Notes under the pieces: generated by a model
Told to the model about the DNA's origin: nothing
The model's database searches: none
What the model saw: the letters and a program-made list of their open reading frames with translations, nothing else
Shown here: one piece after another, positions 40,749 to 56,830 of the stretch
Numbering within the stretch: the first letter of the stretch is position 1
Layout of the letters: each line of letters begins with the position of its first letter
IMG/VR virus record: IMGVR_UViG_3300035701_000006
Span: 1-64,000 of that record
Reading direction: 5' to 3' (one strand)
From: a virus
DNA length: 64,000 nt
Translations under genes and position numbers: made by a program

Positions 40749-41411
40749 ATGGCTATTCCTAAGTCTGTCAGAGAACGCATCCACCGCAAGAAGCGCCAGA
40801 AGAAGGTTGGCGTGAGCGACACTTCCACCAAGGGTCGCATCGTTCCCAAGAAGAGCGCCGATAACGATCCGATCCCGAAATACAGGCAGATCCAGGAGGC
40901 TCTGAACGCCCTTCGTGCCGGCGTCTCTCCGAAGCAAATCGTGGAGGAGTTAGACGAGAATGTCGTCGTGCAACTGAGCGAAGCTGTGTCGCGGCTGATG
41001 ACGATGCAACTCGGCGGGTGGTCCAAGGTGGACGACAAGTTCATCCACGATAGTGGCATTGTTATGAAGTCGGAGGCCCTCGTCAAGGCCGGTCTCGAGC
41101 TCAAGGAAGGGACCATCGTCATCGGCAAGACCGGCCAGCAGTTCATCTTCTGCGATAGGAACAGGCTCTATGAGATGCTCTCGTCGCTCTATAAGACGGT
41201 CCGCATCCTGGACCTTGAACGGAAGCTGGATCTGTTCACTGAGGCTAGGAGGATCATGGGCTCCGGCTACGGCGGTCCAGTCCCCATCTTGGTGAAGAAC
41301 AAGAGCAAGTGCATGCGGTGTGGCGGCGCCATAGAGGCCAATACGTGGGCTGAGTGGGAGAAAGGATACGGCGTCTCCCACATGGAATGCCCGCCAAGGG
41401 CGGAGCCATAA
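40749..41411 (+). CDS. Unknown protein with a C-terminal zinc motif
   Basis: 220 residues, 2 bases after the sigma factor gene. Highly basic N-terminus (RERIHRKKRQKKVG), a helical middle (QIVEELDENVVVQLSEAVS) and a cysteine motif CMRCGGAIE with a further cysteine near the end (HMECPP). Nucleic-acid binding is plausible from charge and zinc motif. The stop overlaps the next ATG (TAATG), tying it to the terminase genes. Confidence 0.5.
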   Translation: MAIPKSVRERIHRKKRQKKVGVSDTSTKGRIVPKKSADNDPIPKYRQIQEALNALRAGVSPKQIVEELDENVVVQLSEAVSRLMTMQLGGWSKVDDKFIHDSGIVMKSEALVKAGLELKEGTIVIGKTGQQFIFCDRNRLYEMLSSLYKTVRILDLERKLDLFTEARRIMGSGYGGPVPILVKNKSKCMRCGGAIEANTWAEWEKGYGVSHMECPPRAEP

Positions 41412-42020: not shown

Positions 42021-43931
42021 ATGCTGACTATTGATGCCAAGCAGCGACAGATTATTAAGCGCACTCAGGGAAGCGCGCAGTACTTCATATCTCAGTTCTG
42101 CTGGCTCAAGCATCCGAAACTGGGTCCCATCAAGTTCAGCCTGTTCAGATATCAGTCAGAATGCCTTCTCGATTTCCTAACACGGAGATATTTAATCTTT
42201 TGGAAGACAAGGCAGGCAGGGATTAGTACGCTTGTCGGCGCCTATGCGCTCTGGTATGCGATGTTCGCTCCCGCGAGGACGGTACTGATCGTGTCGAAAC
42301 GCGACCTGGACGCCAAGGAATTCCTCACCAAGAACGTCAAGTTCGCCTATGATAAGCTACCTTCCTGGATGCAAGCCGTCTGGCCACGGGTCATCGACAA
42401 TGAACACGTCATAGGCTTTCCGAACGGTTCCAAGATCACGAGCTTATCGTCGAGCAAGGACACGCTCCGGTCGAACTCAGCATCCCTCGTCGTGCTGGAC
42501 GAAGTCGCGCACATGCCGAACATGGACGAGATGTGGTCAGCTGGCGCTCCTACCCTGCAGCACGCAGGGCAGTGCATCTGCATCGGGACTCCGAACGGAA
42601 TCGGCAACTGGTACTGGCAATCAGTGACTGATGCTCAGGAGGGGTATAACGATTTTAAGCTCATCAAGATAAACTGGTGGGACATGGACTGGCGTCTTGA
42701 GCATGATGACCCAGTCACGGGATTCAGGACCATTATCGCCCCGACCGATGATATCCGGGAAACCGTTACGGACGAAGAGCGGAAGAAATATGGAAAGCTC
42801 TGGAGCCCCTGGCTTGAGGAACAGTATCGAGTGCTGACCCAGCGAGGTGACGACAGGAAGTTCAGGCAGGAGGTCCTTGCTGAGTTCCTCGGCAGCGGTA
42901 ACACGGTCGTATCAACCTCAACCCTGACTACCATCAAGGAACAGCATTCCGACACGTTCACGTCTGTGGGCAACGCAGAATATGTGAACCCGTCAACGGA
43001 AGAGCGGACGGTCCTCGAGTTCGATAAGAAGTTCTGGATCTGGAAAAAGCCAGTACGCGGCACGACTGTTCAACCAAAGGCGAGCGCCTTGCGCGAGATA
43101 CATCTGAAAGGTCATGTGGCTGCGTCAGAGGTCCTAGAGGAGCCGCACGTTTATGTGGCGGGCGTCGATACCAGCACGGGGGATGGCTCCGACTTCTGCG
43201 CGGTGGTCGTCTGGGACGTGACAGAAGGGGAGCAGGTTGCGGAGCTCAAGATCCGGGTGACGCCGCGCATTCTGGCGATGATGGCGGATTACATCGGCAG
43301 GTACTACAACAACGCGCTTCTCGTCGTCGAGCGCACTGGCATCGGCGCGACCACGGTCGAGGATCTTGAGAACATACTCTATTACCCGAACCTCTACAGG
43401 CCAAAGAAGTCGAACGGCAAGATGGGCAAGACCGGGTTCAACACGAGTCCTAGCTCGAAGCCTCTCCTGAACAAGGCCATCGTAGATAACATTGGTACTG
43501 ACGGCTTCAAGGTGAATTCGTTCAGGCTCTACAAGGAACTCTGCATCTACGTTCACTTGTCCGGCGGAAGGACGGGGAACGAGCCTGGAACGGGAAACAC
43601 GGACGACCTCGTTATGGCAGCTGCAATGGGGCTCATCGGGATCAACGAGGCGGCGGCCCGCACGTCACAGGTCCTACCGCCGTTCAAGCCCCAGGATGAT
43701 CCGCGCTTGGAATATGCCGGTAGGACTGAACAGGACGTTCTGAATGACGAAAAGAAAAAGGAAGAATTCGCCGTGAAGGGCGGCCCTGGGGTTCTCATGC
43801 CGTACATAGCTGCTGATGCGTCTGATTTCACGGCAGAGGACGAGTATAACAAGTTCGTTAGGCAGCTTGGTGGCGTCCCGATGTTGAAGTCGATGCCAAC
43901 AGTCACGAACAGGAAACATGTCATAAGGTAA
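42021..43931 (+). CDS. Terminase large subunit (packaging ATPase/nuclease)
   Basis: 636 residues. Preceded by CAAATATATCAT rather than a ribosome site. ATPase domain: FWKTRQAGIST near 60-70 (variant Walker A), SLVVLDEVAHMPN near 157 (Walker B plus catalytic Glu) and CIGTPNGIGNWYW (motif III). Nuclease domain: AGVDTSTGDGSDF near 380, VVERTGIGATTVED near 435 and NTDDLVMAAAMGLIG near 530 supply the three acidic metal ligands of the RNase H fold. It cuts concatemers and pumps DNA into the prohead through the portal at 45368. Confidence 0.93.
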   Translation: MLTIDAKQRQIIKRTQGSAQYFISQFCWLKHPKLGPIKFSLFRYQSECLLDFLTRRYLIFWKTRQAGISTLVGAYALWYAMFAPARTVLIVSKRDLDAKEFLTKNVKFAYDKLPSWMQAVWPRVIDNEHVIGFPNGSKITSLSSSKDTLRSNSASLVVLDEVAHMPNMDEMWSAGAPTLQHAGQCICIGTPNGIGNWYWQSVTDAQEGYNDFKLIKINWWDMDWRLEHDDPVTGFRTIIAPTDDIRETVTDEERKKYGKLWSPWLEEQYRVLTQRGDDRKFRQEVLAEFLGSGNTVVSTSTLTTIKEQHSDTFTSVGNAEYVNPSTEERTVLEFDKKFWIWKKPVRGTTVQPKASALREIHLKGHVAASEVLEEPHVYVAGVDTSTGDGSDFCAVVVWDVTEGEQVAELKIRVTPRILAMMADYIGRYYNNALLVVERTGIGATTVEDLENILYYPNLYRPKKSNGKMGKTGFNTSPSSKPLLNKAIVDNIGTDGFKVNSFRLYKELCIYVHLSGGRTGNEPGTGNTDDLVMAAAMGLIGINEAAARTSQVLPPFKPQDDPRLEYAGRTEQDVLNDEKKKEEFAVKGGPGVLMPYIAADASDFTAEDEYNKFVRQLGGVPMLKSMPTVTNRKHVIR

Positions 43932-45367: not shown

Positions 45368-48100
45368 ATGGGCTTCCAACTCTGGGATCGGTTATCAGCC
45401 CTCGCACGACAGGCTCAGGTCTACGGCCAGGAGAGGCTGTTCACTAGCCAGACAAACCTTGATCGCATCATATCCGGCGGCGAATTGCTCGACTTTGGTA
45501 AACAGCACGCCATTCTCGAGCAGACGAACCTTCAGATCAACCGCCTCGAACGCTACAAGGACTTCGATCAGATGGACGAAGTCGGCGAGGTCTCGATGGG
45601 CCTCGACATGTACTGCCTCTCCGGCGATACAAAGATCCCGCTCCTTGACGGTACGAGTCCGACTATCAAGGAGCTGGCTGAATCCAATCGCCGCGAATAT
45701 TGGCTCTACTCTTTCGATGCCGAAACCGGAGAATATGTGCCAGGCCGCGCTTATGGCGCACACATTAGCGGTAGGAATGCAGATCTTGTAGAGGTCGAGT
45801 TTGACGATGGACTTAAGCTTCGCGTCACGGCCAGTCATAAGTTCCTAACGCGAGATGGGTATATGAAGGCGGCTGATCTGAAACCAGGACAATCCATAGT
45901 ACCACTTTATAAGACGAATTCGTTGTCGGAATCTGAAACTCGTGAAACGAGGCGCTGCGGATCTGATCAGCGCAAGATGGCGGAGAAGGGGTATGAGTTC
46001 ATAAGAATGACGACAGGCGTTTGGAAGCCGACGCACCATTGGGTATATGAGGCCATCTTTGGCGAGCGTAAGGGTATTATTCATCACGAAAATCTGGCGA
46101 AAGGCAACAACGATCCAGCGAATCTGAAGCTGAAGACCTGGGCAGAACACCAGCGGATTCATATGGCCTTGGGTAGAAATCTACCTCCCGAGGTTATGGA
46201 AGCGAAGAGGAAGAAATGCTCAGAGAGAGTCAGAGCAAAATGGCAAGACCCAGAATACAGACTCAAGCTAAGAGGGCATTGCCAAGAGATGATGCAGTTG
46301 ATGTATCATCGCGGTCTTGCCTTCAGACGCAAAGAAGAATATTCTAGGGTCGGTTGGGAAGAGCTGGAGAGATACGCGCAGAGCGGCGGTTCTCTGAGAG
46401 GTATAAGGATCATCGCACGCAGCCTACAGTGTGCCGATCGTGTCATAAACAGGATTCTCGACAGGCGAAATATTGACCTAGAGACCCTGCGCAGGTCGGC
46501 GGTCGGTAATCATAAAATTGTTGCTGTAATGCCCTGTGGTGTTGCTGCGGAGGTCTATGATCTCTATGTCGAGAAACATCACTGTTTCGCCGCCGGCGAC
46601 GGCAAATCATGGGTCATCGTCCATAACTCGGACGAGGGTACCGTCACGGATTCCGAGCGGAAGCATACCGTGATGGTGCGGGCGAAATCCAAGCGCGTTA
46701 AGGAAGAGATTGAGGACCTACTCTACAACATCCTCAACATCGACAGTTTCTCCCGTCCCGCCATTCGGTACCTGTGCAAGTATGGCGATGCGCCGTTTGA
46801 GATTATCCCGTCTAAGAATCGCGATGCCGTCGCCTCGTTGAAGTTCATGAACGTCTATAACTTCACGCGCGTGGAGACGAAGTTTGGGGACCTGGTGGGC
46901 TTCTTCTACCAGGACGAGATCATGGCGACCCCGATCTTTTTGCATCCGTGGTCCGTCATGCACCTGCGTCTGACCAGTTTCGAGAACATCTACCACCCTT
47001 ACGGCCGCGGCATTCTTGACCCGGCGCGCAAATCCTTCAAGCAGTTGAGGTTGATGGAGGACGCCGCGCTCATCTACCGCATTACCCGTGCTCCGGAACG
47101 CCGCATCTTCAAGATCCCCGTGGGCATGATTCCTGCCAAGGAAATCTCGGGGTACATGGAGATCATCGCCCGCCAGTTCAAGAAGCGCCGTCTGTTCAAT
47201 CCGGCGACCGGGGAGCTCGACGAGAGATGGTCGCCTCTGATCCAGGAAGACGATTACTGGCTGCCTGTGAGGCCGGATGGCAGCGGCCCTGACGTGACGA
47301 CGCTGCCTGGCGGCCAGAATCTCGATCAGATTGCTGACATCGTCTACTTCAAGAAGAAGATGATGTCAGCCATGAAGGTCCCGTTCGTCAAGGCGGGGCT
47401 ATCAGAGTCGACTGGCGAGGAATCGTCGAGGCCTGCCTCTCATATTTCTCCTGAGTTTGCGAAGTCTGTGCAATGGGTGCAGCGCGAGTTCCTGACAGGA
47501 CTCAAGAAGGCCTGCATTGTGCACCTGGCTCTGCGCGGCCATAAGCTAGGCGACTTCAAGAACTTCGACCTCTTCATGACGGCATCTAGCGCCATAGATG
47601 AGCTCTATCGCATAGAGACGTGGAAGTCGAGGGCAGACGTCATCGGGAGCTTGAAGGATACGGAACTGTTCCCTGATGCCTGGATTCTGCGCAACTTTAC
47701 TGACATGACGGAAGAAGAAGTTGTGCAGCTTCAGAAGGAAAAGGCAGCCGCCGCTCCTCCGCCTGAGGAGGGAGATGAAGGCATGCCGTCGCTGCCCGAA
47801 GGATACGACGCGAAGGCGGAGAATAAGCTCATTACGGAATGGCGGCAACTCGAATCTACTCTTATCCCTGTCGAGAAGGAGCGGGTCTTCACGAACGGCT
47901 TCCTGAAGCTCCTCAGCGAAGGGCAGTTTGACGGACTTGAGGCAGGGAATAAGAAAGTAGAGCCCAAGGCGGATGGAAAGCTCATTACGGAGGCGAGGGA
48001 CGCGACCAAGGCCCTCATTGAGATGAAGAAGGAGTTCGTGAAGCGGCGCGTCGTCATACAGGATGAACCCACAGAGGAAGACCTACCGCCCCTGAGATGA
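45368..48100 (+). CDS. Portal protein interrupted by an intein
   Basis: 910-residue precursor. The exteins form a T4 gp20-like portal of about 572 residues: N-terminal QLWDRLSALARQAQVYGQER, EVGEVSMGLDMY, then SDEGTVTDSERKHTVMV, LLYNILNIDSFSRPAIR, HPYGRGILDPARKSFKQLRL, YRITRAPERRIFKIPVG and FKKKMMSAMKVPFVKA. The portal ring is the DNA entry channel and docking site for the terminase and neck. Residues 83-420 are the intein. Splicing would join Y82 to S421 at the conserved D-x-Y-S/A-D/E segment. C-terminal about 60 residues are helical and charged. Confidence 0.9.
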   Translation: MGFQLWDRLSALARQAQVYGQERLFTSQTNLDRIISGGELLDFGKQHAILEQTNLQINRLERYKDFDQMDEVGEVSMGLDMYCLSGDTKIPLLDGTSPTIKELAESNRREYWLYSFDAETGEYVPGRAYGAHISGRNADLVEVEFDDGLKLRVTASHKFLTRDGYMKAADLKPGQSIVPLYKTNSLSESETRETRRCGSDQRKMAEKGYEFIRMTTGVWKPTHHWVYEAIFGERKGIIHHENLAKGNNDPANLKLKTWAEHQRIHMALGRNLPPEVMEAKRKKCSERVRAKWQDPEYRLKLRGHCQEMMQLMYHRGLAFRRKEEYSRVGWEELERYAQSGGSLRGIRIIARSLQCADRVINRILDRRNIDLETLRRSAVGNHKIVAVMPCGVAAEVYDLYVEKHHCFAAGDGKSWVIVHNSDEGTVTDSERKHTVMVRAKSKRVKEEIEDLLYNILNIDSFSRPAIRYLCKYGDAPFEIIPSKNRDAVASLKFMNVYNFTRVETKFGDLVGFFYQDEIMATPIFLHPWSVMHLRLTSFENIYHPYGRGILDPARKSFKQLRLMEDAALIYRITRAPERRIFKIPVGMIPAKEISGYMEIIARQFKKRRLFNPATGELDERWSPLIQEDDYWLPVRPDGSGPDVTTLPGGQNLDQIADIVYFKKKMMSAMKVPFVKAGLSESTGEESSRPASHISPEFAKSVQWVQREFLTGLKKACIVHLALRGHKLGDFKNFDLFMTASSAIDELYRIETWKSRADVIGSLKDTELFPDAWILRNFTDMTEEEVVQLQKEKAAAAPPPEEGDEGMPSLPEGYDAKAENKLITEWRQLESTLIPVEKERVFTNGFLKLLSEGQFDGLEAGNKKVEPKADGKLITEARDATKALIEMKKEFVKRRVVIQDEPTEEDLPPLR
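45614..46627 (+). mobile_element. HNH-type intein in the portal gene
   Basis: 338 codons from C1 (CLSGDTKIPLLDG, block A) to the terminal VIVHN with Ser as +1 residue. Block B is LKLRVTASHKFLTRDGYMK followed by LKPGQSI; block F is VYDLYVEKHHCFAAGDG. Between them lies an HNH_3-type nuclease (IIHHENLAKGNNDPANLKL) and an RVRAKWQDPEYRLKLRG segment resembling NUMOD3 DNA-binding modules. All splicing residues are present, so it is probably active. The middle is visibly more A/T-rich than the exteins, fitting recent mobility. Confidence 0.92.
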
Positions 48101-48127: not shown

Positions 48128-51100
48128 ATGTTAAGGGAACTGCTCATGCCTAGGCCCATCGTTACGATGGACGCGCGTAAGTTTCTTCACACGATCAATG
48201 AGTCCGCTCAGAGTCGTGTGAACTTCTTCTCCAGGCTCATATCTGAGCTGGGAAAGAAGGAGCAAGGCAGTTGGGCGTTGACCGCCCTTGGGCCTAAGTC
48301 CCTTGTCTTTGAGGACAAGGGAACGGGCGACTTCTTCACGGCAGACATCACGCCGAAGATGCACAATCGCTTCGAGGTCAGCGGCATCAAGAAGGTGCAG
48401 ATCGTCGAGGCCAAGAAGGGCGAGGCCTTCCGCAAGGCCTGCTCTGAGCTGATCGATGCCCTGTGCGAGGACGACACCAAGAGCGCCGACGGCGCTTTTT
48501 CCAAGATCGAGGCGTTCAGGTTCCGCTCCCGGGCCATCCCGGAGAGCGGAGTCGTCGCCACCCGCGACGGCGAGGTGCGCCGCGTGAAGGTCACCGACGG
48601 GATCTTCACGGAGGGCATCCGCAAGTCCATCGTCGAGAGCTTTGTCGGCGCGGTCAAGGACGACGTCGTGCTGGAGAAGGGCCGCGTCGTCAGGGCCATT
48701 CTCGGCGACGGCACCGAGAAGTTCGACATTCCCATCAACGAGATGACCCGTCGCAGGGTGGTCGCCAGGCACATGAAGGTCTTCGCCGAGGACGCCTACA
48801 AGAGTGATGCGTTCCAGAGCAAGGTCATTTCGTGGGCCGGACTCGTCTGCGAGGACAAGATCGTCGACGCCGTACAGGATGCTGCCAAGTTCCTTCGCGA
48901 GTACCAAGAGTTCTGCCTCCTGACCCTGCCGGAGACCCGCGAGCTGGTGTCGAACTCCCTCGCGGCGAAGGGCCAGTTCAACCAGAGGCTGGCGGAGGAC
49001 GTCGGCCTCATGGTGTTCCGCACGAGCTTGAAGGTCAATCGCGGCGACATCGTCGAGAGCTGGGAAAGGACTGCGAAGCGGGCCGAGGATATGGATCTCC
49101 TCGAAAGGGCGAAGTCCCTCACGGAGTCCAAGGACTTCGAGAAGGACTACCAGAGCCTGCTCGGGTACCTCTTCACGGAGGAAGAGGGATCGAAGACGAC
49201 TCGCCACAAGGCGTATCACAACAGCCTGAAGATCATCCGCAGCGTGGTCGGCAAGATCGAAGGCAACGAAGAGATGCTCGCCGCGATGGACGACCTCATC
49301 GCGAAGTTCGACCGCGACAAGATGGACGACGCAACCCTCTACGAGGTGGAGGATCTGCTCGCTTCCATCAGCTCTGAGCTCATCACTGCGATCGGGCAGC
49401 TGGGCGGGGCTGAGATGCCTCCGATGGGCGGCGCTCCTGAGGGCCTCGAGGGTGAGGCTCCTGAGGGCCTCGAGGGTGGAGCTCCTGAGTCTGCTGTCGA
49501 GCTCCCGCCCATGGGTGGCGAGGGCGAGGGTGAAGAGGGCGGCCTTGAGGGCCTAGAGGGTCTCGACCTCGGCGGCGGCGAGGAAGAGAAGGGCGAGGAA
49601 GAGAAGCCCAAGGAAGAGAAGCCCAAGGAAGAGAAGCCCAAGAAGGAGAAGAAGGAGAAGAAGGAAGAGTCCAAGGACGAGGATGGCGACAAGAAAGACG
49701 AGCCCAAGGACGAGTCCAAGGACGAGGATGGCGACAAGAAGGACGAGGAGCCCATCGAGGGTATGAGCGAGAGCCAGCTCAAGGAAGAGCTCGAGGGTTG
49801 GCGGGCCAACCATGCCACCTTCATCCTCGAGGACGGCGTGGACGACTGCATGCATCAGCTCTCGCGCTACGTCAAGCGCAGCCAGGCCGTCAAGAATGAG
49901 GAAGTGACCAAGGGCTTCAAGGCCATCGTGGGCCTCTACGAGGCAGCGGCCGAGGCCGCCCTCGCTGATCCGTACGGCACTGGGCCGGATCTGGGCGACC
50001 CCGCCCCGAAGATCAGCCTCGCGTACCCCTACAAGGGTGGCAAGCAGCCCTCTGACAAGGACGTCCAGAGGGTGAAGTGCCCCAGCTGCAAGTGGTGGCT
50101 CGGAGAGGCCGCCGATGACGTGCAGAAGACCATCACCAAGAAGGTCGTCGCCCACGAGTCCGTCGACTGCCCCAAGTGCGGCACCAAGCTCGTGACTGAG
50201 GATGACGACATCACCGACCCCGATGCGTCCGATTACAGCGGCGATGTCAAGATGCCGCATTCGAACATCGGCGAGGGCAAGCACTCTGACTGCGCCAAGA
50301 TTCTCCAGGAAGAGCTCGACACCTACAACGGCGACATCGATCTCGTCATTGAGGCGATGGAAGACGACCCTACAAAGTGGAAGAAGATGTGGAGCTCCCT
50401 CACGGGCGATCGCACGCACAAGATGACGGCCTGCATGAGGGCGATGAAGGGCAAGGTCGAGAACCCTGCCGCCTTCTGCAACAAGCTCGCGCAGGTCGCT
50501 GAGGACAAGGACGTCACCGATCCGAGCAAGAAGGACTTCGGCAACGATATCAAGATGCCGCACGGGAACGACGGGCACAAGGATGAGAAGGGTGGCCTTG
50601 GTGACCGTACTGCCAAGGAGATGAAGCCCGCCAACATCGGGGCTGGCGGCATCACCGAAGACGACACCAAGTGCAGGAAGTGCCCCAAGTGTGGCGCGAC
50701 GATCCTCGGCGAGGCCCTCACCTGCTCGAAGTGCGAGACCGGCATGACGAAGACCGAGGACAAGGACATCACCGATCCGAGCAAGAAGCAGTTCGCAGGC
50801 GACATCAAGATGCCGCATTCGAACATCGGCGAGGGTAAGTGCCCTGACTGCGGCGGCAAGCTGGTCATCGACGAGGCGGATGACGCGCAGGTCGCGGTCT
50901 GCGAGGGCGACTGCGACGTCCTTTACGAGGCCAAGTGCCCGACCTGCGACACCAAGCTCGGTAAGGGCGGCTACTGCATCTCGTGCCGCAAGAAGTGCGC
51001 AGCCGAGGACCAGTTCAAGTGGGGCACCCGGCGCCGCCGTTACGGCTTCCGCCGGTCCACCATCAACCAGCTCGAGGCGGAGTCCATCGAGTCTCCGTCT

Positions 51101-51568
51101 GAGCAGGCCCTGAGTGAGCACATCGACAGCGTGATCGCCGACATCGCGAAGGAGATGGAAGGCATCGCCGAGGACAAGGACATTACCAGCCCCGAGAAGG
51201 GCTCGTACTCCGGCGACACGGCTATGCCTCACTCCAACAAGGGGCATGACGTCCAGGGTACTCCCAAGGTCGGCGACGTTCTGAAGACCGGGCAGACCGC
51301 CAAGGGGTCTCCGACCCTGGCTGAGACCGGCGACAAGCCCGGCGAGACCAAGACCGAGGCTACGGATGCCGAGGTGAATGCCATCGCGGCCCAGGTCAAG
51401 GTCGAGGACAAGGACATCACCGACCCGAGCAAGAAGGACTTCGGCAACGACATCAAGATGCCGCACGGGAACGACGGGCACAAGGAGCAGGGCGGCGGGC
51501 TGGTGAACCCGAAGCTCCAGGATATCAAGCCCGCCAACATCAGTGGCGGTGGTCAGACGGTGGGGTAA
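48128..51568 (+). CDS. Large repeat- and cysteine-rich protein between portal and prohead protease
   Basis: 1146 residues, family not recognised. Residues 1-435 are a globular, mostly helical part (VTMDARKFLHTINESAQSR; VVARHMKVFAEDAYKSDAF). About 436-560 is Gly/Glu/Pro/Lys low complexity with KEEKP repeats. From 690 to the end come five units of consensus E-D-K-D-I-T-D-P-S-K-K-x-F-x-x-D-I-K-M-P-H-x-N (50198, 50501, 50756, 51170, 51404), interleaved with zinc-ribbon cysteine pairs (CPSC/CPKC, CPKC/CSKC, CPDC, CPTC/CISC). A helical HIDSVIADIAKEME and a DPTKWKKMWSSL segment also occur. Position suggests an internal head, core or maturation protein. Confidence 0.6.
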   Translation: MLRELLMPRPIVTMDARKFLHTINESAQSRVNFFSRLISELGKKEQGSWALTALGPKSLVFEDKGTGDFFTADITPKMHNRFEVSGIKKVQIVEAKKGEAFRKACSELIDALCEDDTKSADGAFSKIEAFRFRSRAIPESGVVATRDGEVRRVKVTDGIFTEGIRKSIVESFVGAVKDDVVLEKGRVVRAILGDGTEKFDIPINEMTRRRVVARHMKVFAEDAYKSDAFQSKVISWAGLVCEDKIVDAVQDAAKFLREYQEFCLLTLPETRELVSNSLAAKGQFNQRLAEDVGLMVFRTSLKVNRGDIVESWERTAKRAEDMDLLERAKSLTESKDFEKDYQSLLGYLFTEEEGSKTTRHKAYHNSLKIIRSVVGKIEGNEEMLAAMDDLIAKFDRDKMDDATLYEVEDLLASISSELITAIGQLGGAEMPPMGGAPEGLEGEAPEGLEGGAPESAVELPPMGGEGEGEEGGLEGLEGLDLGGGEEEKGEEEKPKEEKPKEEKPKKEKKEKKEESKDEDGDKKDEPKDESKDEDGDKKDEEPIEGMSESQLKEELEGWRANHATFILEDGVDDCMHQLSRYVKRSQAVKNEEVTKGFKAIVGLYEAAAEAALADPYGTGPDLGDPAPKISLAYPYKGGKQPSDKDVQRVKCPSCKWWLGEAADDVQKTITKKVVAHESVDCPKCGTKLVTEDDDITDPDASDYSGDVKMPHSNIGEGKHSDCAKILQEELDTYNGDIDLVIEAMEDDPTKWKKMWSSLTGDRTHKMTACMRAMKGKVENPAAFCNKLAQVAEDKDVTDPSKKDFGNDIKMPHGNDGHKDEKGGLGDRTAKEMKPANIGAGGITEDDTKCRKCPKCGATILGEALTCSKCETGMTKTEDKDITDPSKKQFAGDIKMPHSNIGEGKCPDCGGKLVIDEADDAQVAVCEGDCDVLYEAKCPTCDTKLGKGGYCISCRKKCAAEDQFKWGTRRRRYGFRRSTINQLEAESIESPSEQALSEHIDSVIADIAKEMEGIAEDKDITSPEKGSYSGDTAMPHSNKGHDVQGTPKVGDVLKTGQTAKGSPTLAETGDKPGETKTEATDAEVNAIAAQVKVEDKDITDPSKKDFGNDIKMPHGNDGHKEQGGGLVNPKLQDIKPANISGGGQTVG
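49598..49642 (+). repeat. Three tandem copies of a 15-bp unit
   Basis: GAAGAGAAGCCCAAG repeated three times in frame, coding E-E-K-P-K units within the charged linker of the 1146-residue protein. Part of a longer Lys/Glu region ending near 49750. Such in-frame units expand and contract by replication slippage. Confidence 0.85.
50198..51483 (+). repeat. Five dispersed coding repeats of about 80 bp
   Basis: Starts near 50198, 50501, 50756, 51170 and 51404. Each codes the D-[IV]-T-[DS]-P ... [DA]-[IVT]-[KA]-M-P-H-[SG]-N unit; copies 2 and 5 are nearly identical in DNA (GACTTCGGCAACGA, ATCAAGATGCCGCACGGGAA), copy 1 and 4 more diverged. Spacers of 170-330 bases hold the zinc motifs. Coding repeats, not a CRISPR. 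Confidence 0.85.
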
Positions 51569-51700: not shown

Positions 51701-52381
51701 ATGAAGGCGACCATTGACAGGAACTACGTGTTTTCGACCGGCGACATCCCCGATGGGATGCAGCTGATCACGGACTCCATGCCCTTCGAGGTGCTCGAGG
51801 TCAAGAGCGTCATTCTCGAGGGCGCAGGGCAGAAGGAACCGGTGATGCGGATCACCGGGATCTTCCAGAGGTCCGACAAGAAGAATGCCAATGGTCGCAT
51901 TTACACGCAGGATGTCCTTCATGAGGCCGTCGAATCCGTGCAGGAGGACATCAAGAGCCGTCGCGTCCTTGGGGAGCTTGACCATCCGGCTGACGCCAAG
52001 CTGCACATGGACAGGGCCTCCCACCTCATTACCAAGATCTGGATGGACGGTCCCATCGTCATGGGAGAGGCGGAGATCCTTCATAAGCTGCCCTGTGGCG
52101 AGATGCTCAAGGCGCTGTTTGAGCACAAGGTTCAGATCGGCATCAGCTCCCGTGGGATCGGCGACATGTCCGTGGAAGAGGACGACGGCGGGAACGAGGT
52201 GTACAAGGTCCAGCCCGGCTACAAGTTCGTGACCTGGGATGCCGTTGCGGAGCCCAGCGTTCCTGGCGGCCAGCTGATGGTCATGGAATCCCGCCAGAAG
52301 ATCCGCAAGGCCTCTGAGGACGCTCGCCGCCAGCACGAGAAGATGATCGTCGAAGAGGTGCGGAAGCGTTTCAATGCATGA
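51701..52381 (+). CDS. Prohead core protease (T4 gp21-like)
   Basis: 226 residues, full length. The Ser-His-Asp type catalytic set is visible: GELDHP near 92-97 (His), IGISSRGIG near 147-155 (Ser) and WDAVAEPSVPGG near 178 (Asp region). MRITGIFQRSDKKNANGRIY at the start of the core is typical of the family. The enzyme sits in the scaffold, cleaves capsid and core proteins during head maturation and then itself. Strong AGGAGAT site. Followed by an overlapping gene. Confidence 0.9.
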   Translation: MKATIDRNYVFSTGDIPDGMQLITDSMPFEVLEVKSVILEGAGQKEPVMRITGIFQRSDKKNANGRIYTQDVLHEAVESVQEDIKSRRVLGELDHPADAKLHMDRASHLITKIWMDGPIVMGEAEILHKLPCGEMLKALFEHKVQIGISSRGIGDMSVEEDDGGNEVYKVQPGYKFVTWDAVAEPSVPGGQLMVMESRQKIRKASEDARRQHEKMIVEEVRKRFNA

Positions 52382-53892: not shown

Positions 53893-54600
53893 ATGGATAA
53901 GATCCGCGAGCTGCTCAAGAAGATCGGCGCCTCCGAGGAGCTGGCCACCCAGATCATGGAGGAGCTCGATCGGTACACGACTTCCTCCCGCGAGAAGCTC
54001 GAGACGGAGTATCAAGTCAGGATTCAGAAGGCGAAGAAAGTGTGTCTGGAGGAGGTCGCGAAGGAGAAGGCTCGCATCGCCCACAAGGTCGAAGTATTCC
54101 TCGAGAGCAAGGCGGCGTCCATCGAGCGTGCGGCGGCCAGGCAGAGGGCCATTGAAGAGTCCGCTGCTGTTGCGGCGCTTCGCAAGGTCAAGGGAGCCTT
54201 GGGCGTCGAGAACGGCAATAGCGAGGAACTCCAGGCCCTCCAAAGGAAACTGGCCCGCATCGCCGAGCAGGCGAACGCCCTGAAGGAGGAGCGTGATCAC
54301 GCGGTCGAGAAGGCCAACCAGGCCAACAAGATCGCGTCTCGCGTCGTTCGCAGGGCCAGGCTCCTGGAGGCGAAGGCTCCGGAGACGAAGCCCGAGGCCA
54401 AGCCCGCCAAGGTCGTGACCGAGGACGAGGGCGTGGCCGGACTCGCCGCCGCTAGGACTGCCACGGCGGAGCCGAAGACGAGCGTCGTGAGCGTCGCTGA
54501 CGTTCCTCCCGTCGTAGCGCCCGTCGCCGCCAGGATGACGGCGACTGTCCCCAACTCGCCTGAGGACATCGCCAACTCGATGGACAGGGAAGTGGCGTAA
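53893..54600 (+). CDS. Prohead core scaffolding protein (gp22-like)
   Basis: 235 residues, full-length scaffold size. Residues 1-165 are almost wholly charged coiled coil (LETEYQVRIQKAKKVCLEEV; RKLARIAEQANALKEERDH), followed by a flexible Pro/Ala/Glu tail and a SPEDIANSMDREVA end. It sits just before the major capsid gene, as gp22 does before gp23. It would guide capsid assembly and be degraded by the protease at 51701. Confidence 0.8.
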   Translation: MDKIRELLKKIGASEELATQIMEELDRYTTSSREKLETEYQVRIQKAKKVCLEEVAKEKARIAHKVEVFLESKAASIERAAARQRAIEESAAVAALRKVKGALGVENGNSEELQALQRKLARIAEQANALKEERDHAVEKANQANKIASRVVRRARLLEAKAPETKPEAKPAKVVTEDEGVAGLAAARTATAEPKTSVVSVADVPPVVAPVAARMTATVPNSPEDIANSMDREVA

Positions 54601-54629: not shown

Positions 54630-56156
54630 ATGACGGCCATGATCACCGAGGAAGTCAGGCAGGCGAAGCTCCTGTCTGAATCCAAGAAGAACGAGACGAT
54701 CCGGCGTTGGGCCCCGGTGCTCCGGAAGTGCACGGAGATCGGCCCCAAGAAGATGAGCACGTTCGCTCAGCTTCTCGAGAACCAGCACAGGGCATGGGCG
54801 CCAGGTGGCTCCCGCCTCCTCTTCGAGGAGACGACGACCACGAACAACATCGCGGACTTCACCAGGTTCGCGCTGCCGCTCCTGCGCAAGAGCTACCCGA
54901 AGCTGATCGCTGACAACCTGGTAGGCGTTCAGCCGATGTCCCAGCCGGCAAGCCTGATCTTCTACATCAGGTACCGCTACGCCCTGAACAAGGGCATGAC
55001 CCGGGCCGGCACGCAGATCATGCGCCAGAACACGGCGCAGCAGTTCGCTCGCCAGAACGGCTGGGCGATGGATCCGTACTACAGCTCCCAGACGGTCAAG
55101 GGCGAGGAAGCCACGATCGGACCAGGCGGCGGCGTGGTCACGGCTACGCTCGTGCACAAGCCCGTGCTCGCCGGCACGGTCGTCGTGAACGTCTACGAGG
55201 CGGACACCGACTCCTGCCTCGAGCCGACCCCCTGCCTGCAGGTCGGGTTCGACTCGACGGGTCATGCGGACACCGTGCTGGTCGGTTCCGGCACCGGCTG
55301 TCCGGCGGGCGTCGTGGTTGACACCACGACAAGCGGCGGGACGTTCTTCGACCACAGCTCGGCCCAGGTCCAGGTCACGCTGACCTCCGGCAACCTGACC
55401 GGCCTGGTCGCCAGGGTCGACTACGAGTTCGACCTGGAGAACAACCCCTTCCAGCCCGAGGTCACGCTCTCCATCGACTCCGACAGCGTGTCGGCAGTCA
55501 CCCGGAAGCTCAAGACCAGCTGGTCGCTGGAAGCCGCTCAGGACCTCAAGGCGGTGCACAACATCGACGCTGAGAGCACCCTGACGGACCTCATGGCCGA
55601 CGAGATGGTCGCCGAGATCGACCGCGAGATCATCAACGACCTCATCATCGCCGCCTCGATCCGCGCCACGCACAACTTCGCCACCGCGGCGGGGGCGAGC
55701 GTGAACTTCACGGATCGCAACATCGCGCTGCTGTACAAGGTGCTGGAAGTCGCCAACGTCATCCACAGGACGACCCTCCGCGGGCCGGCCAACTGGATGG
55801 TCACCTCGGCCGACATCGCCAGCAAGTTCGAGCAGCTGAACGACTTCAGGGGCTCGGACGCTCTCGCGCAGGACGGGATCGACATCGGGATCACCAGCGC
55901 CGGGACGGTTCAGGGGAAGATCAAGCTGTACAAGGACCCCCTCTTCCCGAACTGCAAGATCCTGATGGGCTTCAAGGGCAACAGCGTGCTGGATGCGGGC
56001 TACTTCTATGCGCCCTACATTCCCCTGCTGTCCACGCCGACCGTGCTGGACCCCAACAGCTTCACCCCGAACAAGGGCATAATGACGCGTTACGGAAAAA
56101 AGCTCATCGAGGACGGTGGGCTTTACTACGGCGTGGTTACGGTCTCGAATTTGTAA
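54630..56156 (+). CDS. Major capsid protein (T4 gp23-like)
   Basis: 508 residues. NIADFTRFALPLLRKSYPKL, then LVGVQPMSQPASLIFYIRYR is the clear gp23 signature; further QFARQNGWAMDP, LKTSWSLEAAQDLKAVHNID (gp23 has the same W-S-x-E-x-x-Q-D-L-x-A element), EIDREIINDLI and a final YGKKLIEDGGLYYGVVTV. The HK97-fold shell protein, cleaved near its N-terminus by the prohead protease. Very uniform GC-rich codons, fitting high expression. Followed by a strong terminator. Confidence 0.95.
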   Translation: MTAMITEEVRQAKLLSESKKNETIRRWAPVLRKCTEIGPKKMSTFAQLLENQHRAWAPGGSRLLFEETTTTNNIADFTRFALPLLRKSYPKLIADNLVGVQPMSQPASLIFYIRYRYALNKGMTRAGTQIMRQNTAQQFARQNGWAMDPYYSSQTVKGEEATIGPGGGVVTATLVHKPVLAGTVVVNVYEADTDSCLEPTPCLQVGFDSTGHADTVLVGSGTGCPAGVVVDTTTSGGTFFDHSSAQVQVTLTSGNLTGLVARVDYEFDLENNPFQPEVTLSIDSDSVSAVTRKLKTSWSLEAAQDLKAVHNIDAESTLTDLMADEMVAEIDREIINDLIIAASIRATHNFATAAGASVNFTDRNIALLYKVLEVANVIHRTTLRGPANWMVTSADIASKFEQLNDFRGSDALAQDGIDIGITSAGTVQGKIKLYKDPLFPNCKILMGFKGNSVLDAGYFYAPYIPLLSTPTVLDPNSFTPNKGIMTRYGKKLIEDGGLYYGVVTVSNL

Positions 56157-56254: not shown

Positions 56255-56830
56255 ATGAGAAAATGCGTGAAATGTGGTACATCTGAGTTGGCGTGTGTTT
56301 TCAAACCGCGCGCCAATGTTTGTATGGAATGCCATAAGGAATACATGCGGAAATATAGGCTGAAGAATAGGGAGAGGCTTAGCAAGCTAGTGATGGAATG
56401 GAAGAACAAGAACAGGGATAAGTACAGAGATTCTTGCAGGGCGCACTATGCCACGGAGGAAGGGAAGCGGAAGCATGTAGTCAGGGTTGAGAGGACGTTT
56501 CGTTCCTGGCTATCACATTTGACAAGTAGATCTCGGATGCGGAATCCGGGGCCTCACGATCCTAAGGACCCTGAGCGTAGAGAATTCAACATAGACCTGG
56601 ACTACGTGATGGGGATCCTTGAACGTCAAAAGCATCACTGCGCATTGACTGGCCTTCCTTTGACCCATAGATTTAATGACCTTTATGCCGCCTCAGTTGA
56701 CAGAATAGATTCTTCAAAAGGACACATCAAGGGGAACATCCAGATTATCTGTTCGGCTATCAACTTTGCCAAGCGCAGTCATTCTAATGAGGGCATGATC
56801 AAGTTCATTAGAGATCTCCGTTCTCAGTAG
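56255..56830 (+). CDS. Free-standing HNH homing endonuclease
   Basis: 191 residues. N-terminal zinc site (MRKCVKCGTSELACVF, ANVCMECHKEYM) and basic helix, then the HNH nuclease: HHCALTGLPL near 125, AASVDRIDSSKGHIKGNIQII near 145 (D-R-I-D then N), FAKRSHS. The arrangement matches mobile HNH genes of phages that also carry a zinc-finger DNA-binding N-terminus. A/T-rich relative to the capsid gene before it and separated from it by a terminator, so it looks like an independent insertion. Confidence 0.85.
   Translation: MRKCVKCGTSELACVFKPRANVCMECHKEYMRKYRLKNRERLSKLVMEWKNKNRDKYRDSCRAHYATEEGKRKHVVRVERTFRSWLSHLTSRSRMRNPGPHDPKDPERREFNIDLDYVMGILERQKHHCALTGLPLTHRFNDLYAASVDRIDSSKGHIKGNIQIICSAINFAKRSHSNEGMIKFIRDLRSQ

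Follow-up and report, generated by a model that had tools for sequence, protein, structure and literature searches.

The 1146-residue protein encoded at positions 48128 to 51568 of the window, the analyzed stretch that comprises the first 64 kb of a 137-kb IMG/VR virus contig, is probably a digested prohead core protein, belonging to the transient inner core around which the head is assembled, and a greatly enlarged functional counterpart of T4 gp67/gp68, as judged from its sequence. This reading is preferred because both the position of the gene and the spread of the putative protease sites resemble those of the T4 gp22/gp67/gp68 group; we infer its presence in the core and its actual cutting. 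The likeness to gp67/gp68 is one of function only, because membership in those families was tested by sequence and no significant match was obtained. The protein represents a new family, with a probable function of a known type. Core proteins belong to the less well understood components of T4-type capsid assembly, and those of T4 at the portal-protease slot are small.

The gene is one uninterrupted frame of 1146 codons on the plus strand, as are the other window features for which a coordinate range is given here, and lies between the portal and prohead protease genes, as the sequence-only reading had stated. Its neighbors were also as claimed: the upstream gene encodes a gp20-type portal protein with an HNH intein (45368 to 48100; Pfam Portal_T4, 2.3e-62; Intein_splicing, 2.8e-13), and the downstream gene encodes an S77 prohead protease, the proposed cutter of the 1146-residue protein (51701 to 52381; Pfam Peptidase_S77, 1.3e-23). 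The surroundings have the order of a T4-type head module, with TerL at 42021, the portal, the 1146-residue protein, the protease, four small genes, a 235-residue coiled-coil scaffold at the gp22 position (53893 to 54600, assigned by position and conservation) and the gp23-type major capsid protein (MCP; 54630 to 56156; Gp23, 6.5e-80). The gene therefore lies within the portal-protease-scaffold-MCP block, as a T4-type prohead core gene should. The HNH-endonuclease intein occupies about residues 90 to 420 of the portal. Among the other loci described below, intein-like long open reading frames (ORFs) were seen in L008 (TerL) and in L012 and L022 (portal), and L023 has an insert in its S77 protease. 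Directly 3' of the MCP gene, a frame at 56255 to 56830 has an HNH-like C-terminal sequence and is perhaps a homing endonuclease.

Relatives were found by searching IMG/VR with the N-terminal domain, and a scan for the MPHxN codon pattern added the loci L043 and L047. Besides the copy on the window's contig, the domain search gave about 20 IMG/VR loci that encode a relative, some of them near-duplicates. The carriers are T4-like environmental phages whose contigs range from a few kb to 370 kb; no relative was found in GTDB genomes, so a host clue is absent. The portal-X-protease order, X being the protein under study, was kept at every locus with a sequenced flank, and the scaffold and MCP genes came next where sequenced; an extra gene lies between X and the protease in L014/L016 and, by coordinates, in L043. 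The proteins in this slot are roughly 800 to 1300 residues long, modular and quickly changing. Identities were 70 to 83% for the MCP, 48 to 67% for the portal, 44 to 52% for the protease and 32 to 45% for the N-terminal domain; the N-terminal domain of L043, a complete protein of 1143 residues, is 67% identical to that of the window, and L047 is a C-terminal part. The relatives have in common an alpha/beta N-terminal domain of ~420 residues. The acidic tail behind it contains repeats that differ by lineage: M(G/D/S)KPxGKG in L008/L009/L010/L022/L024/L025, KMDVQGGxAIGKG in L021 (weaker versions in L014), and RMDDLQGxGG...DGRKG in L019/L020/L029.

T4-type S77 proteases cut after hydrophobic-x-Glu (hxE). 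The prohead protease of SPN3US cuts after A-x-E (PMC10052503). In the window phage group, alignment of the MCP revealed that its N-terminus keeps an L-x-E↓(D/E) boundary where one is expected. Hydrophobic residues (LIVMF) were counted around each Glu and compared with shuffles within 20-residue blocks, by which local composition was controlled. At offset -2 (P3), to which the peak was confined, the 1146-residue protein had 40 against 25.6 expected (z 3.7) and ranked first among the 53 window ORFs, the remainder of which had a mean z of 0.37 (sd 0.97). The motif was spread over the whole length of the protein, the N-terminal domain included. The predicted fold of that domain in the AlphaFold2 model calls for caution on digestion, since it may shield the cut sites there.

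The same signature was obtained across the family. In the N-terminal domain of 15 orthologs, the profile peaked at -2 (observed/expected [o/e] 1.83, z 13.1), the next largest positive z being 3.8 at +6. Pooled z values over orthologs are inflated by common ancestry, but each ortholog was positive singly (z 2.0 to 5.7). Counts centered on Asp or Lys had no -2 peak. In the middle and tail part, the -2 peak was weaker (o/e 1.33, z 5.5) and +2 was also raised (z 4.0). The orthologs stood clearly above the portal, TerL and MCP of their own phages (o/e 1.09, 1.25 and 1.32), the TerL and MCP values being small excesses that advise caution in reading the signature. The scaffold family at the gp22 position also had a -2 peak (z 7.7), and P1' in the core protein was enriched for S, D and A. 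When the count was calibrated on T4, gp22 gave o/e 1.82 (z 4.0) and Alt gave 0.79 (z -0.9), whereas 14 other proteins had a mean z of 0.4 and a maximum of 2.5; the pooled T4 core proteins reached z 4.2 versus 0.9 in controls. Against this gp22 and Alt calibration, the 1146-residue protein has hxE sites above expectation along its chain. The P3-offset test is a simple, homology-free way to recognize digested core proteins, and could be applied to other uncultured phages that encode an S77 protease to find theirs.

Residues 1 to 424 (48128 to 49399) form the conserved N-terminal domain, delimited by alignment and modeled by AlphaFold2 with a mean pLDDT of 76 and a pTM of 0.56; its MDARKF block is invariant across the 15-row alignment. 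This region had been described as helical, which was correct for part of it but not for the whole, since the model is mixed alpha/beta. It is followed by an acidic low-complexity linker with tandem repeats (residues 425 to 538, 49400 to 49741; net charge -26 over 425 to 545) and a three-helix module that most relatives keep (residues 545 to 613, 49760 to 49966; block pLDDT mostly 90 to 96). Past residue 613, the model consists of modules of moderate confidence (residues 720 to 791, the cysteine sets, and residues 992 to 1014) with segments below 50 between them. Residues 720 to 791 are a predicted helical cassette (50285 to 50500), in place of which L043 has an unrelated one, and residues 992 to 1014 are the predicted helix IDSVIADIAKEM (51101 to 51169), whose IDxVIxxI pattern recurs in many, not all, relatives. 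The conserved basic motif AAEDQFKWGTRRRRYGFRRSTIN (residues 958 to 980, 50999 to 51067) has a start that fits an hxE↓D cut site, and is kept near the C-terminus of most but not all relatives as E(D/A/S)QYK...G(Y/F)KKSxIN. All orthologs have an acidic tail, with net charges of -23 to -106. On the basis of the model, the tail is best read as small modules (a three-helix bundle, putative zinc ribbons, a basic peptide and a helix) strung on unstructured acidic linkers.

The described alternation of five MPHxN units with four zinc-ribbon-like CxxC sets was confirmed in the 1146-residue frame. Set 1 comprises C651/C654/C681/C684 (50078 to 50179), set 2 C849/C852/C855 and C866/C869 (50672 to 50734), set 3 C905/C908 and C925/C929 (50840 to 50914), and set 4 C937/C940 and C950/C953/C957 (50936 to 50998). 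All four were below the Pfam threshold: for the zinc ribbon families Zn_Ribbon_1, Zn_ribbon_3 and DZR, the best score was 21.9 bits, against curated cut-offs of 25 to 25.8. The ribbons are dispensable in the family, because the L008 relative has no CxxC at all.

The five direct-repeat copies, 80 nt each, encode EDDDITDP...MPHSN (unit 1, residues 691 to 713, 50198 to 50266), EDKDVTDP...MPHGN (unit 2, residues 792 to 814, 50501 to 50569), EDKDITDP...MPHSN (unit 3, residues 877 to 899, 50756 to 50824), EDKDITSP...MPHSN (unit 4, residues 1015 to 1037, 51170 to 51238) and EDKDITDP...MPHGN (unit 5, residues 1093 to 1115, 51404 to 51472), at irregular spacings of 303, 255, 414 and 234 nt. Across the 137-kb record, the MPHxN codon pattern had five forward matches, all in this gene, and no reverse match; the reversed control pattern had none. 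Copies 2 and 5 are the closest pair, as had been noted, but "near-identical" is a little strong for 90% DNA identity over 80 nt with one exact block of 35 nt; the other pairs are 57 to 82% identical. The DFGNDIKMPHGNDGHK text common to copies 2 and 5 of the window phage is specific to it, and copies 2 and 5 of L043 do not have it in common, which fits a homogenization after the window/L043 split. Of the recent duplication or gene conversion previously suggested, gene conversion fits this pattern.

The sequence-only reading had proposed looking for the unit in other phages and had named its loss in close relatives as a point against a role. Only the window phage and the phages closest to it carry the unit: the window phage and L043 have five units each in identical order, and L047 retains the last two. 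The objection holds by half, with MPHxN absent in the more distant relatives and other repeats in its place. All 12 units keep M-P-H-x-N while the codons differ, so the motif is subject to purifying selection. Between units 1 and 2, the window phage and L043 have wholly different modules, and the units therefore border exchangeable cassettes. All five units of the window phage lie within low-confidence segments of the AlphaFold2 model (<50), a pattern like that of disordered stretches that link small modules. Given their invariance in three phages and this low model confidence, the repeats may be binding peptides, as had been suggested. A perfect hxE cut site at the beginning of each unit was considered but abandoned, P3 being hydrophobic in only about half of the 12.

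That no family could be recognized was borne out. Neither Pfam nor PHROG gave anything convincing for the whole protein or for any N-terminal domain member, the best PDB sequence match had E 0.55, and Foldseek searches of the N-terminal domain model against viral models and the PDB yielded no match with an E value of 0.001 or below, the best viral one having E 0.03; a local Foldseek match to a 635-residue "prohead protease" was set aside as sub-threshold. By tblastn against INPHARED, the full-length protein was unmatched at E ≤ 0.01, and the two halves had only matches at E ≥ 2. For the gp67 family (PHROG 1064/683), hhalign gave E 0.42 and PHROG no match; homology is not supported by that E value, the suggestive placement at residues 105 to 131 notwithstanding. 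The 1146-residue protein and the N-terminal domain members were also unmatched by the gp68 family (PHROG 1049), which T4 gp68 itself matches at 1.7e-71.

The T4 protease breaks gp22, gp67 and gp68 down to peptides, whereas Alt and the internal proteins (IPs) are only trimmed; of the IPs, IPI is stated to be injected (PMC9958956). The T4 genes for gp22, gp67 and gp68 adjoin gp21, and the portal-protease gap holds gp67 (80 residues) and gp68 (141 residues); the corresponding cyanophage gap contains a single gp67-like protein, about 93 to 115 residues long. The gp67 types share the slot and an acidic C-terminal part with the 1146-residue protein, but are far shorter and have neither zinc ribbons nor repeats. 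T4 gp68 shares the slot, but has a basic C-terminus instead of an acidic tail. The major scaffold gp22, digested during maturation, has a similarly strong hxE peak along its chain, but its slot in the window is already filled by the protein at 53893, which a PHROG scan did not match to the 1146-residue protein. In the 595-kb phage LR756511, a 616-residue protein occupies the same slot (L012:5346-7196), and its N-terminal segment aligns with the N-terminal domain over 76 columns (hhalign E 2e-4); it is shorter, has no zinc ribbons, and carries short tail repeats of its own, WPxLxNPY instead of MPHxN.

In the proposed mechanism, the N-terminal domain would assemble inside the prohead together with the portal, the scaffold and the capsid protein. 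The S77 protease from the adjoining downstream gene would then cut the protein at many hxE sites, and by the time DNA is packaged most of it would have left as peptides. The MPHxN units would be linker peptides between exchangeable modules, probably short multi-copy docking motifs. A variant of this scheme, considered improbable, is a protease-released polyprotein in which repeated MPHxN docking linkers would load a string of exchangeable mini-proteins (zinc ribbons and helical cassettes) into the prohead; S77 would release these at hxE↓D sites, and a portion of them would reach the host.

The head role and the core-protein option of the sequence-only reading are supported by the conserved gene position and the gp22-like signature; its other option, an internal protein ejected with DNA, is less favored and seems unlikely, if the least so of the alternatives. 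Such a protein would be packaged, perhaps trimmed, and enter the host with DNA, where the zinc ribbons and MPHxN would act on host targets. Fragments that survive digestion of a core protein might also be ejected. The gene lies inside the head module, its exchangeable, fast-changing modules look like cargo, and both T4 and SPN3US possess ejected proteins (PMC9958956, PMC10052503). T4 Alt and IPI to IPIII are likewise located inside the head, with precursors cut by an S77-type protease, but they are encoded away from the portal-protease gap, and the ejected Alt has no hxE enrichment along its chain, whereas the 1146-residue protein has it over its full length. In addition, the tail is highly acidic, and no enzyme-like domain was found by Pfam or by Foldseek against viral models and the PDB.

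It is doubtful that the protein stays in the mature head as a lasting structural component, attached for instance to the portal or the inner capsid surface with the repeats as capsid-binding motifs: the gene adjoins the portal gene in every relative and conserved peptides are repeated, but the protease-site enrichment argues against permanence, and repeats that are swapped between lineages with MCPs 70 to 83% identical would be unusual if they fitted the MCP lattice directly. Least probable is that the hxE enrichment is a by-product of helices or composition, silent on cutting, in a head assembly factor of another function. Acidic helix-rich proteins could carry such patterns, the orthologs are related by descent, and two T4 non-core proteins reached z 2.5. 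Against this, the N-terminal domain excess falls at -2 with little at +2, where amphipathic helices would give ±3 and ±4; local composition was controlled by the block shuffling, the Asp- and Lys-centered profiles have no -2 peak, and P1' prefers S, D and A.

Several minor observations were made in the head modules. After the protease, L009:12468-14717 (749 residues) and L010:12148-13878 (576 residues) encode proteins in which DUF3008 scores above the Pfam cut-off and which also have cysteine pairs and an acidic tail. They represent another modular protein in a similar style; no counterpart was found at the corresponding place in the window. The gp22-position scaffolds L010:15464-16306, L022:10179-11012 and L025:12373-13200 contain a CxC...CxxC insert resembling a zinc ribbon, which is missing from the scaffold of the window. 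An endonuclease-like ORF starting MIDW, with CxxC pairs, lies between TerL and the portal in L010:4710-6020 and L043:3255-4880 and is absent from that place in the window. The gp67-like proteins of S-RIM50 (L030:4973-5254) and S-RIM14 (L035:198-527) end in DGRMPHESP and DGRMPHDPP, resembling the MPHxN unit; MPH occurred in 2 of 10 sampled cyanophage gp67-like tails, which may be a lead on MPHxN, possibly by chance. Ahead of TerL, a 220-residue ORF at 40749 to 41411 has the second highest hxE enrichment in the window (z 2.8) and could be another protease-cut head protein, or a chance result.
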